DNA of 64,000 bases from Breznakibacter xylanolyticus (GTDB lineage: Bacteria; Bacteroidota; Bacteroidia; Bacteroidales; Marinilabiliaceae): NCBI RefSeq assembly GCF_003254275.1, contig NZ_QKZK01000011.1:62001-126000 (forward strand), given 5' to 3'. How positions within the stretch are numbered: the stretch's first letter is position 1; every line of letters starts with the position of its first letter. The position numbers were made by a program, and so were the translations under genes. The notes under the pieces are model-generated. The model worked only from the letters and a program-made list of their open reading frames with translations, was not told where the DNA came from and searched no databases. This document shows, piece by piece, positions 38,548 to 45,720 of the stretch.

Positions 38548-39070
38548 ACTTTTTTAAGATTTAGGTTTATAAAAGATCATCTGATTTATTAGAATTGAGT
38601 GCTGTATTTGTTTGTTTTACAGCGCTTTTGTCTCTTGTCATTTGTTCGATTGCAAGAGATTAATGGATGTGAAGGCGATGTCGCGGCATCTGATACTGTG
38701 CCTGTGAATGCAGCGTATACTGTTTGTCAACAGCCACTCATGTAAATAAATGAGCATAGAAGCAGGAATGTGATCATGCATGACAAGGGTAGTTGTCTTG
38801 TTAAACGTAATGAGTAAGACCCTGGGCGTTCCTGCACTGCTCTCCTTGTCTTGTATTGCCCTCGGGTTTTCGAAGATAGTGATTTGAGGGGAATAAACAA
38901 ATGGATTGTTTACAAAAATTAATGATTTGCGGAAGTGTTAGCCCGATAACGAGTATTTCGATGTTATGATTGTTGTGGGAATGAAAAAAACGAAAAAATT
39001 TTACGATGAAATGCATTGGGGAATAATTAATATATATATTTGTATGGTCAAACCTTTAACTTAAATTGGA
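38548..39070. other. Divergent AT-rich region between hppA and the TM2 gene
   Basis: No gene is visible in 523 bp. A small hairpin (CTCAT..ATGAG near 38736-38754) and a TATATTTG box at 39035-39042 are present; the box lies 28 nt before the TM2 start and is probably its -7 element. No good -33 box is seen. Confidence 0.55.
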
Positions 39071-39481
39071 ATGAAAAAGTTTGTTTTGTTTTTTGCCCTT
39101 GTGTTGGGCTTGTCAACATTTGCAGTTGATGCCAGTGCGTCATTTAAAATTGACGACAATCAGGTAGAATCGTTGTTTGCTGCCGCAGATGAGGTAAGTA
39201 CAAGCATGATGTTTGATGCTTTGGACATGTCAGCCAATGCTTCCACTGCTACTATTTCAGCAGGAAAAGATCCTTTGGTTGCTATCTTGCTTGACTTCTT
39301 TTTGGGTGGTTTAGGAATTCACCGTTTCTACTTAGGTACTAAGACGATGACCGGTATCGGTTACATCTTGACTTGTGGAGGTATTTTCGGTCTGGTGCCT
39401 TTGATTGACTTGATTGTATTGGCTGTCAATTATGATGACATTAGTCAGTTTGTAGATAACCCCAAGTTTTTCATGTGGTAA
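39071..39481 (+). CDS. TM2-domain protein with signal peptide
   Basis: A 136-residue envelope protein. A signal peptide (1-24, ending DASA) is followed by a short soluble stretch and then a TM2 domain (about 66-130): KDPLVAILLDFFLGGLGIHRFYLG, a turn, GIGYILTCGGIFGLVPLIDLIVL. TM2 proteins have two membrane helices around a GxHRFYLG turn; their function is not settled. A terminator follows, but the next four genes, also on the plus strand, include two with a related motif, so it may belong to the same system. The base composition is AT-rich. Confidence 0.88.
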   Translation: MKKFVLFFALVLGLSTFAVDASASFKIDDNQVESLFAAADEVSTSMMFDALDMSANASTATISAGKDPLVAILLDFFLGGLGIHRFYLGTKTMTGIGYILTCGGIFGLVPLIDLIVLAVNYDDISQFVDNPKFFMW

Positions 39482-39510
39482 TTTGCAGTTTTGTTGACGC
39501 AAAATTTATT

Positions 39511-39546
39511 AAAAAAGCAGGTTGTTTATTGCAGCCTGCTTTTGTC
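39511..39546 (+). terminator. Terminator after the TM2 gene
   Basis: AAAAGCAGG..TG, loop, CA.CCTGCTTTT is a stem of about 9-11 bp with a T-run. It may act on both strands. Confidence 0.75.
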
Positions 39547-39580
39547 TTTGTTTGTAGTAAATGATTGACATTTGATTGTT

Positions 39581-40291
39581 ATGAAACATTATTGCTGCGT
39601 GTTAATTTTATCGATGTTGATTGCTTCCATGGGGGTGAGCTCTGCGCAGTTGTTAAATTCTGCTGTATCTGCCGATGTAACACACCAAATTTTGCAAAAA
39701 GGTAAGGTGATGACTGTTAAATCGCAAACGCTCTATGATGGTAAAAGTGATAAAATTGTATGCCATTATTTTAATCCGAAGGAATTTTATAAAACGGTTA
39801 ATAATAAGGGTGAAATGCGAATATATTTTCCGAAAGATAATACGGTCTCGTATACGCAGAATAACCATTATTCAAGTAATAATGAGTTGATGTACTATTT
39901 TGTGAATAATAAAGTTGATGATCTGGGTCTAAAAAGTGAAGGATTTAAAGTGAAAAGTACAAATTATAAAGACGATCATTTGGTTGTTACATGGGAAGCT
40001 CCGGTTCATCTGATGCCAGTAAAAGAAGTGGATGTTGTTTTTGAAAATTATCTTCCTATCTATTCTGAATATAGGGGAGTGGATGGTAAAGTTTTGAAAA
40101 AAATATATTACTACCAGTATTTTTCGTGCCCGGAGTTTAATTTTCCTCAAAAAATCACCGAAGTATCTTTTGATGCAAGTCCTGATTCTATTTTGAAGCG
40201 AACAACTTATTCAAATATCAAGATCGGTAATCAGGTTGATCGTACTTTGTTTAATTTTGAAATCCCTGCAAATGCTAAGAAGGTCGATTAA
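39581..40291 (+). CDS. LolA-like periplasmic lipoprotein-carrier-fold protein
   Basis: Exported protein of 236 residues from ATG 39581; an in-frame TTG at 39572 is less likely. The signal peptide is about 1-22 (ending SSAQ). The mature part is an open beta-barrel-like fold with the pattern of LolA-type outer-membrane lipoprotein carriers: a string of beta strands such as KVMTVKSQTLYDGKSDKIVCHYFNPKEFYKTVNNKGEMRIYFPKDNTVSY, and a late NFPQKITEVSF..LKRTTYSNIKIGNQVDRTLFNFEIP, where LolA relatives also end in F..PxxA. It overlaps the YidD-like gene by 20 bp. I infer a lipid- or lipoprotein-handling role from the fold only. Confidence 0.7.
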   Translation: MKHYCCVLILSMLIASMGVSSAQLLNSAVSADVTHQILQKGKVMTVKSQTLYDGKSDKIVCHYFNPKEFYKTVNNKGEMRIYFPKDNTVSYTQNNHYSSNNELMYYFVNNKVDDLGLKSEGFKVKSTNYKDDHLVVTWEAPVHLMPVKEVDVVFENYLPIYSEYRGVDGKVLKKIYYYQYFSCPEFNFPQKITEVSFDASPDSILKRTTYSNIKIGNQVDRTLFNFEIPANAKKVD

Positions 40292-40775
40292 GCGTTGTTG
40301 TTTTAGTATTTTTTTTGCTTTTTCTTTCATTTCTTTGGGTGCTCAAAATTCATCAGAATCAACAATTTCTTCGTTGAGTGATTTAATCATTCAGCGTAAT
40401 CGTATTGATTCATCTGAAGTTGCATTGGTGTATAACAAGAACCGCGATTTTTATTTAAAAGGGGAGCCTTTGTCCAGAAAGTTAAATCCGTTGAATTGGT
40501 TTTTTGGGGGTATGCTTTATTTTTATCAGGAGGTTTTATCTAATCAGTTTTCTGCTGATTGTTTGTTTTATCCAACGTGTTCCGAGTTTTGTAAACATGC
40601 AATGCGGCGTCATGGATTAATTCGAGGCTTGTTATTGACCTCAGATCGTGTTGCGCGTTGCAATCAAATTTCTCAGTCTGATTTGCATCCGATGAAATTT
40701 GATGAGAAGAAACGGCGTTTTTTTGATGGTGTTGAATTGTATGATGGTCACAATGGTTGTAAGCTGAAGGAATGA
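40272..40775 (+). CDS. yidD: YidD-like protein with signal-type N-terminus and C-terminal extension
   Basis: A 167-residue protein from ATG 40272. The YidD core (about 68-125) is clear: FYQEVLSNQFSADCLFYPTCSEFCKHAMRRHGLIRGLLLTSDRVARCN, with the conserved Cys-x-[FY]-x-P-T-C-S and RHG..G. Classic YidD is about 70-85 residues and aids YidC-dependent membrane insertion. This one is about twice that length, with a hydrophobic signal-like start (MLRRSIKRCCFSIFFAFS) and a spacer before the core. It is also not next to rnpA. It overlaps the LolA-like gene by 20 bp and its TGA overlaps the next ATG (ATGA at 40772-40775). Whether the core faces the periplasm is open. Confidence 0.8.
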   Translation: MLRRSIKRCCFSIFFAFSFISLGAQNSSESTISSLSDLIIQRNRIDSSEVALVYNKNRDFYLKGEPLSRKLNPLNWFFGGMLYFYQEVLSNQFSADCLFYPTCSEFCKHAMRRHGLIRGLLLTSDRVARCNQISQSDLHPMKFDEKKRRFFDGVELYDGHNGCKLKE

Positions 40776-41632
40776 GTCTGATTCGTTTATTATTTTTTGG
40801 TGTTTTTCTTGCCGGGACTTATTTGTCTTTAAGCGCACAGAAGGATGATTTGGCTTTTGTTGATTTTTTAGTACAGAAGGGTTCCTATCGCGAGGCTATT
40901 TTTGTTTTAAATAAAATGCCTTATGAATCATTCTCTCAAACGAGATTAGATTCTCTTAATTATTTTAAGGGATGGGCGTATTATTCGGTAAAAGAGCTTG
41001 ATTCGTCTTCTGTTTGTTTGGGGCTGGTTTCTCAAGGAGCAGTTATGTATTCTAAATCCAGTCTTTTTAGTGCATATAATCGCATGCATTTAGGGCAACT
41101 TGGCAAGGCAAAAGAACAACTTTCTTTTTATAATCCTTCATCACATCAGGATTCGTTAATGAAAATGTATCTGACATGTGGTATGGAGCTCTTAAGCCGA
41201 AATTATAAAGGATATCATCAACATAGGCAGCAGCTTGATTGTGGCTTTTATGGATATGTTGATGAACTAACAAAAATTGATGCCATTGCATCTCGTCTTC
41301 AAGTGCATCGACCTAAATCGGTTTTTTGTGCCGGATTGATGTCAGCGTTGGTTCCCGGAAGTGGTAAGATTTATTTAGGTAGAACCGGACAGGGCATATC
41401 TTCAATGTTGTTGGTTACTGGTCTCGGTTTGGTTACAGCCGAAAATATCCGCAAACGAGGAATGGAATCTTTTGCTTCCATTTTTTTCGGAACTGTTTTT
41501 ACAACATTTTATGTTGGTAATATTTTGGGGACTGTAAAATTAGGTGCAATTGTTAATCAGGAGTTTAATGCTGAAAATGATGCGAAAATTCTTTTCAATC
41601 TTCATATCCCTCTGCGTAATTTATACAATTGA
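40772..41632 (+). CDS. TPR-like exported protein with TM2-like C-terminal membrane region (paralog 1)
   Basis: A 286-residue protein. The signal peptide is 1-22 (SLSAQ). An all-helical part of about 160 residues resembles tetratricopeptide repeats (GSYREAIFVLNKM, FKGWAYYSVKELDSS, LFSAYNRMHLGQLGKAKEQL). The C-terminal part has SALVPGSGKIYLGRTGQGISSMLLV (192-216), which recalls the GxGxxYxG turn of TM2 and DUF5683-type proteins, then two or three membrane helices. The following gene has the same layout and motif. Start and stop overlap both neighbours, so translation is coupled. I do not know a function. Confidence 0.72.
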   Translation: MSLIRLLFFGVFLAGTYLSLSAQKDDLAFVDFLVQKGSYREAIFVLNKMPYESFSQTRLDSLNYFKGWAYYSVKELDSSSVCLGLVSQGAVMYSKSSLFSAYNRMHLGQLGKAKEQLSFYNPSSHQDSLMKMYLTCGMELLSRNYKGYHQHRQQLDCGFYGYVDELTKIDAIASRLQVHRPKSVFCAGLMSALVPGSGKIYLGRTGQGISSMLLVTGLGLVTAENIRKRGMESFASIFFGTVFTTFYVGNILGTVKLGAIVNQEFNAENDAKILFNLHIPLRNLYN

Positions 41633-42449
41633 TGTTCATTCGCAGTCATTGCCAGTCTTTAATCGTGTTGATTCGTTGATGCTTGCAGGCAGTTTTTTTC
41701 AGGCCTCAATTGAATGCGATCGAGTGATGTTTAATTCCGATTCGATGGAACTGAATCGCATTGCCTTATTGAAAAAAGCGTATGCTCAAAAATCAATGGG
41801 GAATTACGAGAAGGCTATTGAGTTGTTGACTCAGTTTCGTCCGGCCAATAATCATCAGGATAGTTTATGGGTCGTAAAATTTTCCGAATTGGCATTGTGC
41901 CATTTTTTAGATAAAAATTTCGAGAGTTCGTTGGCTGCTTTGGCTGGTATCCGGAATGAATCAATAAAATCAGAACAATTTTATGATATACGCTTGTTGA
42001 AGATTGTGAATTTGAATAGTCTTTATCGTTTTGAAGAAGCCAAAGAATTGATGGAAAGTGCTTTTGTTGATTGCCATCTTGACTGTTCTCAGGTTGATAT
42101 GATATACCGGAAAAGGTATCTACCTAAAAGACGAAATCCAGAAACAGCCAAGAATTTGTCTATGATCATTCCTGGTTCAGGTCATGTTTATTCGGGACGA
42201 TTCGGCGAAGGGGGAATTAATTTTCTGCTCAATGCCGGGGCTTTGTCTTTTGGTGTTTACCATATTTATTATGGATATTTTTTTTCAGGATATGTCATCG
42301 GGTTTACCCTACTTCATAAATTTCATTCCGGAGGAATGCATCGTGCTGAAATATTGGCTGAAGCAAAAAACTTGAGAGACATGACCCGTTTTAATGAATC
42401 CGTTATAAATTGTTTTAATAGAAATCGGAAAATTGTTTTAATGGATTAA
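41577..42449 (+). CDS. TPR-like exported protein with TM2-like C-terminal membrane region (paralog 2)
   Basis: About 290 residues from ATG 41577 or 41580. The signal peptide ends IDVHSQ. The helical part (about 30-190) again looks like TPRs (LMLAGSFFQASIECDRVM, AYAQKSMGNYEKAIELL, LNSLYRFEEAKELM). The C-terminal motif SMIIPGSGHVYSGRFGEGGINFLLN aligns with the same place in the preceding paralog. The gene overlaps the preceding one by more than 50 bp, an unusually long overlap. It abuts the convergent gene at 42450 with no gap. The whole block from 39 to 42.4 kb is AT-rich compared with its surroundings. Confidence 0.72.
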   Translation: MMRKFFSIFISLCVIYTIDVHSQSLPVFNRVDSLMLAGSFFQASIECDRVMFNSDSMELNRIALLKKAYAQKSMGNYEKAIELLTQFRPANNHQDSLWVVKFSELALCHFLDKNFESSLAALAGIRNESIKSEQFYDIRLLKIVNLNSLYRFEEAKELMESAFVDCHLDCSQVDMIYRKRYLPKRRNPETAKNLSMIIPGSGHVYSGRFGEGGINFLLNAGALSFGVYHIYYGYFFSGYVIGFTLLHKFHSGGMHRAEILAEAKNLRDMTRFNESVINCFNRNRKIVLMD

Positions 42450-44136: not shown

Positions 44137-45720
44137 TTATCTTTTTTTTAATAATGTATAAAACACTAATCCTTTGTTTGTTAGTTGATATCTTTGCTTT
44201 GAGCTTTTAGGCTTATCCGGGATAGTCCACTCAATTAATCCATCTTCACGCAGTTTGTTAATGATATGGTACAACTGTCCGGAAATGGTTTTTTGACCTA
44301 AGACGGTAGATATATCTTGAGTTGACAATGTTCCCGTTGATAAAAAACTTAATACTTTACTATAGAGGGATTCTTGGTGTAACTCCTGCTGTAGCACCCA
44401 CTGCAACTCCTGCTGCAACTCCTGCTGCGGCTCCTGCTGTGGCACCCACTGTGACTCTGTCTGTTTTTTTTTAATTTCTTTGTTAATTATTTGATTGTAT
44501 GGTTTTTTGCTATTTTTGTTAGGCTTTTTTTCCCATAGACATTGATCATCGTTGATTATGTTGTTAGGTTGAGTTTCGCTTGTATATGATTGAGGACGAA
44601 AAAACTCTACGTCAAAAAAATCATTTTGCTCTGTTATTTTTGGTTTTTGTAACCCTTGAGCTAAGCAGGTGTTGATAATCCTGTTAATACCGCTGCCCCA
44701 TTGTTCAATTAGTCCAAGTTCTTTAAATACATGAGCAACGGTTCTGTTTCGTACCTCGCTTCTGCCATTCAATGCATCATCCATTGTTATTCCGAAAGGC
44801 AATCCACCTGGCGATACAATGTTGACAATATCGTCGTATATGCCCACTTTTATATCACGGCCTTGGTTGATGTAGTCTCGGTGGACTAAGGCATTGATTA
44901 AGGCTTCACGTAAGGCCGGTACCGGGATTTCATAAGTGTCGGTACGATAAAGTCCGTTGATTTCACCCTTTAGATTGATGTGGTTTAGAACAAAACTTTG
45001 AATGTTTTCTAATATTGTGAATATATCGCCGTTGTACTCTTTTTTGTCGGTAAAAACGGACATCGTGTAGCCTTTAAATCTGGCGCATTTTACAGTGCAG
45101 TGAACAAATTTCCCTAATAAAATCATCAAAGCATGAGTTGGATATGTTTTGCCGTTCTCTGTCTTAATGAGTTTTAAGTTCTCCAGTTTCTCCCTGTTTA
45201 ATGGCTTGTGGATGCTTTCAAAACGTTGGGTCAATGAGGTAATGTCGAGTTGATCAAGGGTCGTTTCATAACAGATTTCTTCATCGAAGCTGATGTGTCT
45301 TTTTTGACGTTCAAGCTCGGCAATTGTTTCTAAATCTGCTAATCTGTTGGTGGCACCGATGCGCACGTAGGTTCCATCGGCTTTACCCTGGCTCTTAATA
45401 AAGTAGGGTTTTAGGTTGCCACGTACAACTTCAATCACCAGTACTAGCTTCCCTTTAATATTTACGCTATAAATTTCAGGATTGATGCCAGGGGTGCAAT
45501 TGTCGGAAATTATTGAAGCTATTTTGTCTTGTAAGTTGAATAATTCGTTGTCGTTAATTCCAATAATTTGCCGGTTATCGTTTACACCTATAATCATTTT
45601 TCCCCCACTGGTATTTGCGAAAGCTGTCACCGTTTTGGCTATGTGTTCGTTCTTCGGCAGCTTTTCCTTCAATTCCAGCGTTTTGCTTTCTCCTTTATCA
45701 ATCTGTTCTGTCAGTTTCAT
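44137..45720 (-). CDS. AlbA_2/RecG-like ATP-binding regulator with Gln-rich linker
   Basis: A 527-residue protein. The N-terminal AlbA_2 (Schlafen-type) domain (about 8-125) reads ESKTLELKEKLPKNEHIAKTVTAFANTSGGKMIIGVND and TYVRIGATNRLAD. A RecG-C/HATPase_c_4-like region has REALINALVHRDY, IVNIVSPGGLPFGI, RNRTVAHVFKELGLIEQWGSGINRI. A linker with a Gln-rich repeat (419-450) leads to a C-terminal winged-helix domain (about 455-527). Such proteins are often called transcriptional regulators or putative DNA helicases, and some Schlafen-like proteins act in phage defence; I cannot decide. It is AT-rich relative to its neighbours and probably acquired. Confidence 0.85.
   Translation of the reverse strand: MKLTEQIDKGESKTLELKEKLPKNEHIAKTVTAFANTSGGKMIIGVNDNRQIIGINDNELFNLQDKIASIISDNCTPGINPEIYSVNIKGKLVLVIEVVRGNLKPYFIKSQGKADGTYVRIGATNRLADLETIAELERQKRHISFDEEICYETTLDQLDITSLTQRFESIHKPLNREKLENLKLIKTENGKTYPTHALMILLGKFVHCTVKCARFKGYTMSVFTDKKEYNGDIFTILENIQSFVLNHINLKGEINGLYRTDTYEIPVPALREALINALVHRDYINQGRDIKVGIYDDIVNIVSPGGLPFGITMDDALNGRSEVRNRTVAHVFKELGLIEQWGSGINRIINTCLAQGLQKPKITEQNDFFDVEFFRPQSYTSETQPNNIINDDQCLWEKKPNKNSKKPYNQIINKEIKKKQTESQWVPQQEPQQELQQELQWVLQQELHQESLYSKVLSFLSTGTLSTQDISTVLGQKTISGQLYHIINKLREDGLIEWTIPDKPKSSKQRYQLTNKGLVFYTLLKKR
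44381..44452. repeat. 12-bp tandem repeat inside the AlbA_2 gene
   Basis: Six imperfect 12-bp units based on AACTCCTGCTGC, with CACCCACTG variants in units 2 and 6. They encode the four-residue pattern QQEL or QWVP/QWVL. Loss or gain of a unit keeps the frame and changes only the linker length. Confidence 0.8.

Follow-up and report, generated by a model that had tools for sequence, protein, structure and literature searches.

A probably exported YidD protein encoded with a LolA-fold protein and two TPR/TM2-like paralogues in a conserved Bacteroidota gene cassette: a candidate assembly pathway for an exported TM2 protein

YidD has been viewed as a protein that assists YidC from the cytoplasmic face of the membrane, and the work of Yu et al. 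in 2011 is said to be the basis for its role in membrane insertion. Known periplasmic carriers serve lipoproteins or beta-barrel proteins. In E. coli, canonical YidD lacks a signal peptide, and its gene lies between rnpA and yidC in the rpmH-rnpA-yidD-yidC cluster (PMC10502375). In Bacteroidota, the carriers LolA1-3 and LolB1-2 have been described and a dedicated LolA2-LolB2 pair has been proposed for the flexirubin locus (PMC11885536); a second paper deals with LolA3 and LolB of P. gingivalis (PMC13103446), and YidD is unmentioned in both. Here we analysed a window of 64,000 nt from Breznakibacter xylanolyticus (contig NZ_QKZK01000011.1, positions 62,001-126,000), which contains five plus-strand genes, designated A to E, that encode a TM2-domain protein (A), a LolA-fold protein (B), a YidD protein (C) and two tetratricopeptide repeat (TPR) paralogues with a TM2-like membrane half (D and E), all of them probably exported. 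The families of these parts are known. A survey of the open-access literature, outside which most subscription papers lie, returned no description of a YidD and LolA combination in Bacteroidota and no YidD with a signal peptide in Bacteroidetes; the combination is one for which we found no published description.

The distribution of the cassette was determined by a contig scan with D, which returned 235 relatives; the locus counts given here refer to the best 80. These 80 loci belong to Marinilabiliales, other Bacteroidales, Cytophagales (Spirosoma, Runella, Rudanella and Flectobacillus), Chitinophagales and one Balneolales metagenome-assembled genome. The results showed that E lies directly 3' of D in 80/80 loci, C directly 5' of D in 75/80 and B before C in 67/80, and that A is nearby in 64/80, either upstream on the same strand (29) or downstream and convergent (36), two groups that can overlap. 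The median spacing was -20 between B and C (58 of 67 overlapping), -4 between C and D (56 of 76) and -65 between D and E (76 of 78). Because this order and these overlaps recur in 80 loci, the possibility that the genes are chance neighbours or an annotation artefact was rejected. The genes flanking the cassette vary between lineages, and among 100 relatives of the window genome the cassette with B was found in 12 genomes besides the window genome itself. The first-pass annotation, which had been made from the letters of the window, would have been refuted by conservation of the four genes together in few or no other genomes; this was not the case, and the cassette is a widespread, ordered and conserved gene set.

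Gene C (40272..40775, plus strand) encodes a protein of 167 aa that matched Pfam YidD (PF01809; 4.2e-18, 65.3 bits against a cut-off of 27) and NCBIfam TIGR00278 (4.4e-18, 64.9 bits against a cut-off of 40), the Pfam match covering a YidD core at residues 77-139 (40500..40688, plus strand). Comparison with canonical YidD showed that C holds the whole core, the conserved cysteines and the arginine-rich motif, and C97, C103, D125, R126, R129 and C130 were invariant in 19 homologues. However, C differs from a canonical YidD: it is twice the usual length, has a signal-like N-terminus, and is encoded as an additional copy next to B, D and E instead of rnpA. Scored by a crude test rather than by SignalP, the signal-like N-terminus was present in 75 of 78 C homologues, 62 of which have an xAQ-type cleavage site, and by the same test most homologues of all five genes bear such an N-terminus. 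A YidD core in a double-size protein with a signal-like N-terminus had been claimed from the window alone, against the background that YidD is usually short and encoded beside rnpA, and both parts of that description were borne out. A second, canonical YidD of 80 aa was found in the same genome behind an rnpA-like open reading frame (ORF; G000:C4:212432). As the canonical YidD is intact elsewhere, a simple duplication of the rnpA-yidD-yidC locus was rejected as the origin of the cassette. By analogy with its family, C may help membrane-protein insertion. In two distant lineages C and D are fused, giving proteins of 400 aa (L103, 5599-6801) and 412 aa (L163, 7578-8816), implying that YidD is placed in the compartment of the TPR half. 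The YidD part of the second fusion is degenerate and has lost the RC motif, suggesting that the last YidD cysteine is dispensable there.

Gene B (39581..40291, plus strand; 236 aa) itself matched no Pfam family; 21 of 66 B homologues matched Pfam LolA_like. An AlphaFold2 model of B built with 66 homologues had a predicted local distance difference test (pLDDT) score of 93.8, and Foldseek assigned it to the LolA superfamily (2.2e-10). In VIA comparisons the model matched P. gingivalis LolA3 with Z 15.5 over 190 residues at a root-mean-square deviation of 3.4, P. gingivalis LolB with Z 14.9, proteobacterial LolA with Z about 10-12 and RseB/MucB with Z about 9-10. B thus has the LolA half-barrel fold in this model; the first-pass annotation had already read the 236-residue protein as LolA-like, and its predicted structure is of that fold. 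A signal-like N-terminus was found in 69 of 72 B homologues by a crude criterion, and B of the window begins MKHYCCVLILSMLIASMGVSSAQ, in which no lipobox was seen by eye. B therefore resembles the Lol carriers LolA and LolB in its signal-like N-terminus and predicted fold, but it differs from them in that it shares only about 10% identity with them, in that its gene overlaps that of an exported YidD and is grouped with TPR/TM2 genes, and in that its occurrence follows that of a TM2 protein and not of lipoproteins. The RseB/MucB matches raise the possibility of an envelope stress sensor, in which B, like RseB/MucB, would detect lipid or protein in the wrong place and C-E would relay the signal. 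RseB and MucB share the fold of B, and histidine kinases adjoin two loci (L039 and L043); however, RseB and MucB match B less well than LolA proteins do, no anti-sigma factor or regulator recurs in the cassette and the kinases are not constant neighbours, making a sensor very improbable.

Gene D (40772..41632, plus strand; 286 aa) was modelled by AlphaFold2 with a pLDDT score of 95.7. The model has a TPR superhelix at about residues 20-180 followed by helices at 184-285, a membrane half made up of a half-helix and two longer helices bearing PGSGKIYLGR. The TPR half matched many TPR chains with Z 12-14, and the fold search of D returned only TPR chains, none of them confined to the membrane half. 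Against TM2, D of the window scored 13.1 bits, below the cut-off, and E had no TM2 match among those listed. Pfam TM2 was weakly matched by 14 of 69 D homologues, and some D/E homologues matched TM2 or DUF5683. Gene E (41568..42449, plus strand; 293 aa) gave weak TPR matches and cross-matched the D profile. D and E are paralogues with TPR-like N-terminal halves and PGSG membrane halves, in agreement with the earlier description of two paralogues sharing a helical-repeat half and a TM2-related PGSGxxYxGRxGxG half. Their membrane halves carry the PGSGxxYxG turn of TM2 and DUF5683 proteins, from which they differ in having an exported TPR half as well. The TPR half of D also matched YfgM of PpiD-YfgM, the TPR helper of the Sec translocon (Z 13.4, one of many such matches); however, this match shows a TPR superhelix only, and the membrane part and the gene partners differ.

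In the window, B and C overlap by 20 bp, C and D by 4 bp and D and E by 65 bp, the last value being 53 bp if E starts at the alternative ATG 41580 (289 aa) instead of ATG 41568, which is preceded by AGGAG. These values confirm the overlaps of 20, 4 and more than 50 bp previously reported downstream of the TM2 gene. The GC content of B-E is 35.9% compared with 48% for the window, and the 3-kb block with the lowest GC content is 39001-42000, so that the region is AT-rich, as had been stated. Gene A (39071..39481, plus strand; 136 aa) is separated from B by a gap of 99 bp that contains an intrinsic terminator (39513..39543, plus strand), a 13-pair stem followed by a T-rich tail, implying that A is a unit of its own, outside the translationally overlapping set B-E. 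The first-pass annotation had given the operon of the LolA-like, YidD-like and paralogous genes a span (39071-42449) that takes in the TM2 gene; the overlaps of B-E support that view as far as these four genes go, but A is set apart by the terminator. A terminator was present in the A-B gap at 22 of 30 loci in which A is upstream of B, compared with 4% of shuffles, and where A is not upstream of B it lies convergently on the opposite strand.

Protein A matched Pfam TM2 (PF05154) at 3.4e-16, with 59.6 bits against a cut-off of 27.9. It consists of a signal peptide, a conserved YxIDDxxVExLF segment, the TM2 hairpin and a C-terminal DNPKFFMW, and has no lipobox. A is thus a TM2 protein to which a signal peptide, a conserved N-terminal segment and the FFMW tail have been added; in an alignment of 51 homologues, conservation is highest in the final eight residues, DNPKFFMW. 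With ribosomal genes as the reference set, A had the highest codon adaptation index (CAI) of the cassette in 8 of 10 genomes, mostly no lower than the ribosomal median, and A of the window exceeded all 40 background ORFs. In several lineages a single B-C-D-E set is accompanied by more than one A copy, as in L123 with three A-like genes, implying that one set can serve several A genes. Taken together, A looks like an abundant product rather than a stoichiometric part. At another locus (L160, 3322-10450), six A-like TM2 genes were observed around one B-C-D-E set.

The occurrence of A and B was compared using thresholds of at least 140 bits for full-length A and at least 220 bits for strong B. 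The results showed that both are present in the same 13 genomes among 100 relatives and in the same two genomes (G000 and G289) among 395 genomes of the phylum; the table for the 100 relatives gives a p value of 1e-16 if the genomes are independent, which they are not. A and B are present or absent jointly inside the genera g2, g4, g13 and g21, as in G031 compared with eight other g2 genomes. In G093, three separate contigs hold A, B-C and D, A and B both being present though unlinked, and where a locus seemed to lack A, the gene was usually found at another place in the genome, L161 and L168 among them. Ordinary TM2 proteins, which have neither the signal peptide nor the tail, are found where B is absent. 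C-D-E was found without A and B at 16 of 20 loci that represent other branches of the phylum, most of the 16 sharing one neighbourhood beside rlmN and an acyl-CoA dehydrogenase gene, and also in G071; of these 20 loci, L084 has the full set, L100 and L102 carry a distant B and L103 has the C-D fusion. The presence of C-D-E without A and B suggests a general core to which A and B are added as an optional pair of client and carrier. A lipoprotein or lipid trafficking branch was also considered, in which B would be a specialised LolA for lipoproteins or lipid and C-D-E the membrane acceptor. Such a branch would accord with the fold of B, whose closest matches are P. gingivalis LolA3 and further members of the LolA family, and with the dedicated Lol pairs proposed in Bacteroidota (PMC11885536). 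However, none of the five proteins has a lipobox, LolCDE or LolB genes were not seen recurring beside the cassette and the partner that B tracks is a TM2 protein, not a lipoprotein, and we consider this branch improbable.

Given that genomes with B carry A and that A looks abundant, A rather than lipoproteins is the best candidate cargo, and we propose with moderate confidence that B-E form a periplasmic-side carrier and insertion apparatus dedicated to A. The first-pass annotation had suggested a dedicated route for lipoproteins or small membrane proteins; a small membrane protein, A, fits as the cargo, but the lipoprotein part was not upheld, as A has no lipobox. We infer a series of steps in which all five proteins are exported, A being the client, B the carrier and C-D-E the inserter. 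A would be exported by Sec and freed by signal-peptide cleavage, and its two TM2 helices, for which crude hydrophobicity scoring gave moderate predicted insertion energies, would need shielding and placement in the membrane. B, in the periplasm, may hold these helices in its hydrophobic cleft, as LolA holds lipoprotein acyl chains. The TPR halves of D and E would dock the carrier B, and their TM2-like hairpins would seat them at the membrane. C, with its YidD domain in the periplasm, would rest on the membrane surface through an amphipathic helix and ease A into the membrane, a role like that proposed for cytoplasmic YidD with YidC clients.

The final membrane of A may be the outer membrane, which would best explain a carrier; the sequence, including the charge pattern of A, is also compatible with a hairpin in the inner membrane whose tail is in the periplasm. 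A specific route to the outer membrane, in which B chaperones the hairpin of A, C-D-E on the outer-membrane side, with a YidD domain put to use outside the cytoplasm, insert it and DNPKFFMW guides it, would be a pathway for outer-membrane proteins that are neither barrels nor lipoproteins; it appears doubtful.

Several observations weigh against the proposal that B-E serve A. Two genomes (G068 and G144) lack the cassette but encode an exported TM2 protein that matches A more weakly and has a related tail, indicating that such proteins can exist without the cassette, and at L161 and L168, where A is elsewhere, C-D-E has no B alongside. In D and E the membrane half has little hydrophobicity, with an unfavourable median predicted dG of +1.5 to +2.5 kcal/mol by the crude scoring, which makes their membrane anchoring uncertain. 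Furthermore, the shared occurrence of A and B also fits a five-subunit structure without a client. A-E could be one stable envelope complex, for instance a channel or scaffold, with A as the main subunit and B-E as accessory or maturation proteins, and no periplasmic carriage. Shared occurrence and gene order cannot separate subunits from clients, and A and the membrane halves of D and E are related TM2-type hairpins that might pack together. However, A is the only one of the five with its own terminator and a high codon bias, and the only one that is at times multicopy and at times unlinked; C-D-E is retained where A and B are missing, and a LolA fold together with a YidD domain suggests biogenesis; a stable complex is therefore unlikely, although it is the strongest of the competing explanations.

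The conserved exported YidD branch and its LolA-fold partner imply that YidD domains can also work on the periplasmic side. Should A prove to be the cargo, the cassette would be a small, testable system for the periplasmic handling of hydrophobic helices, and a likely pathway would be available for five mostly 'hypothetical' families of environmental Bacteroidota.

Variants of the cassette were also observed. At L100 (1456-1869) and L102 (9114-9515), the gene directly 5' of a distant B-C-D-E set encodes a small, exported protein with several helices and no Pfam family; lying in the position of A, it is possibly an alternative client. Two loci (L157 and L147) have two adjacent B-C-D-E sets separated by a small gene, the small genes belonging to one family of about 145 aa. 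At L044 (7153-7821) and L045 (6604-7314), B is replaced beside C-D-E by an exported protein that is unrelated to it and may be a beta-barrel; these upstream ORFs were considered as LolA proteins and rejected, since they aligned poorly and had no Pfam match. At L045, an M48 peptidase gene adjoins as well. Loci L085-L101 have a near-constant arrangement of rlmN, acyl-CoA dehydrogenase, C-D-E, ACT-domain, DUF711, LemA and TPM genes, without A or B.

No match for any of the five proteins was found among the PADLOC anti-phage models, and a defence system was rejected on this ground. The genes flanking the cassette in the window (H+-pyrophosphatase, DUF4922 and AlbA_2) were rejected as members of the system because other loci of the same type lack them. 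Downstream of the cassette, on the minus strand (44137-45720), lies a gene for an SLFN_AlbA_2 protein with a RecG-like C-terminus. A different TM2 context was seen elsewhere in the window genome (L219, G000:C60:6256-7189), where two cytoplasmic-type TM2 genes are followed by a gene for a small membrane protein that presumably resembles DUF2752.

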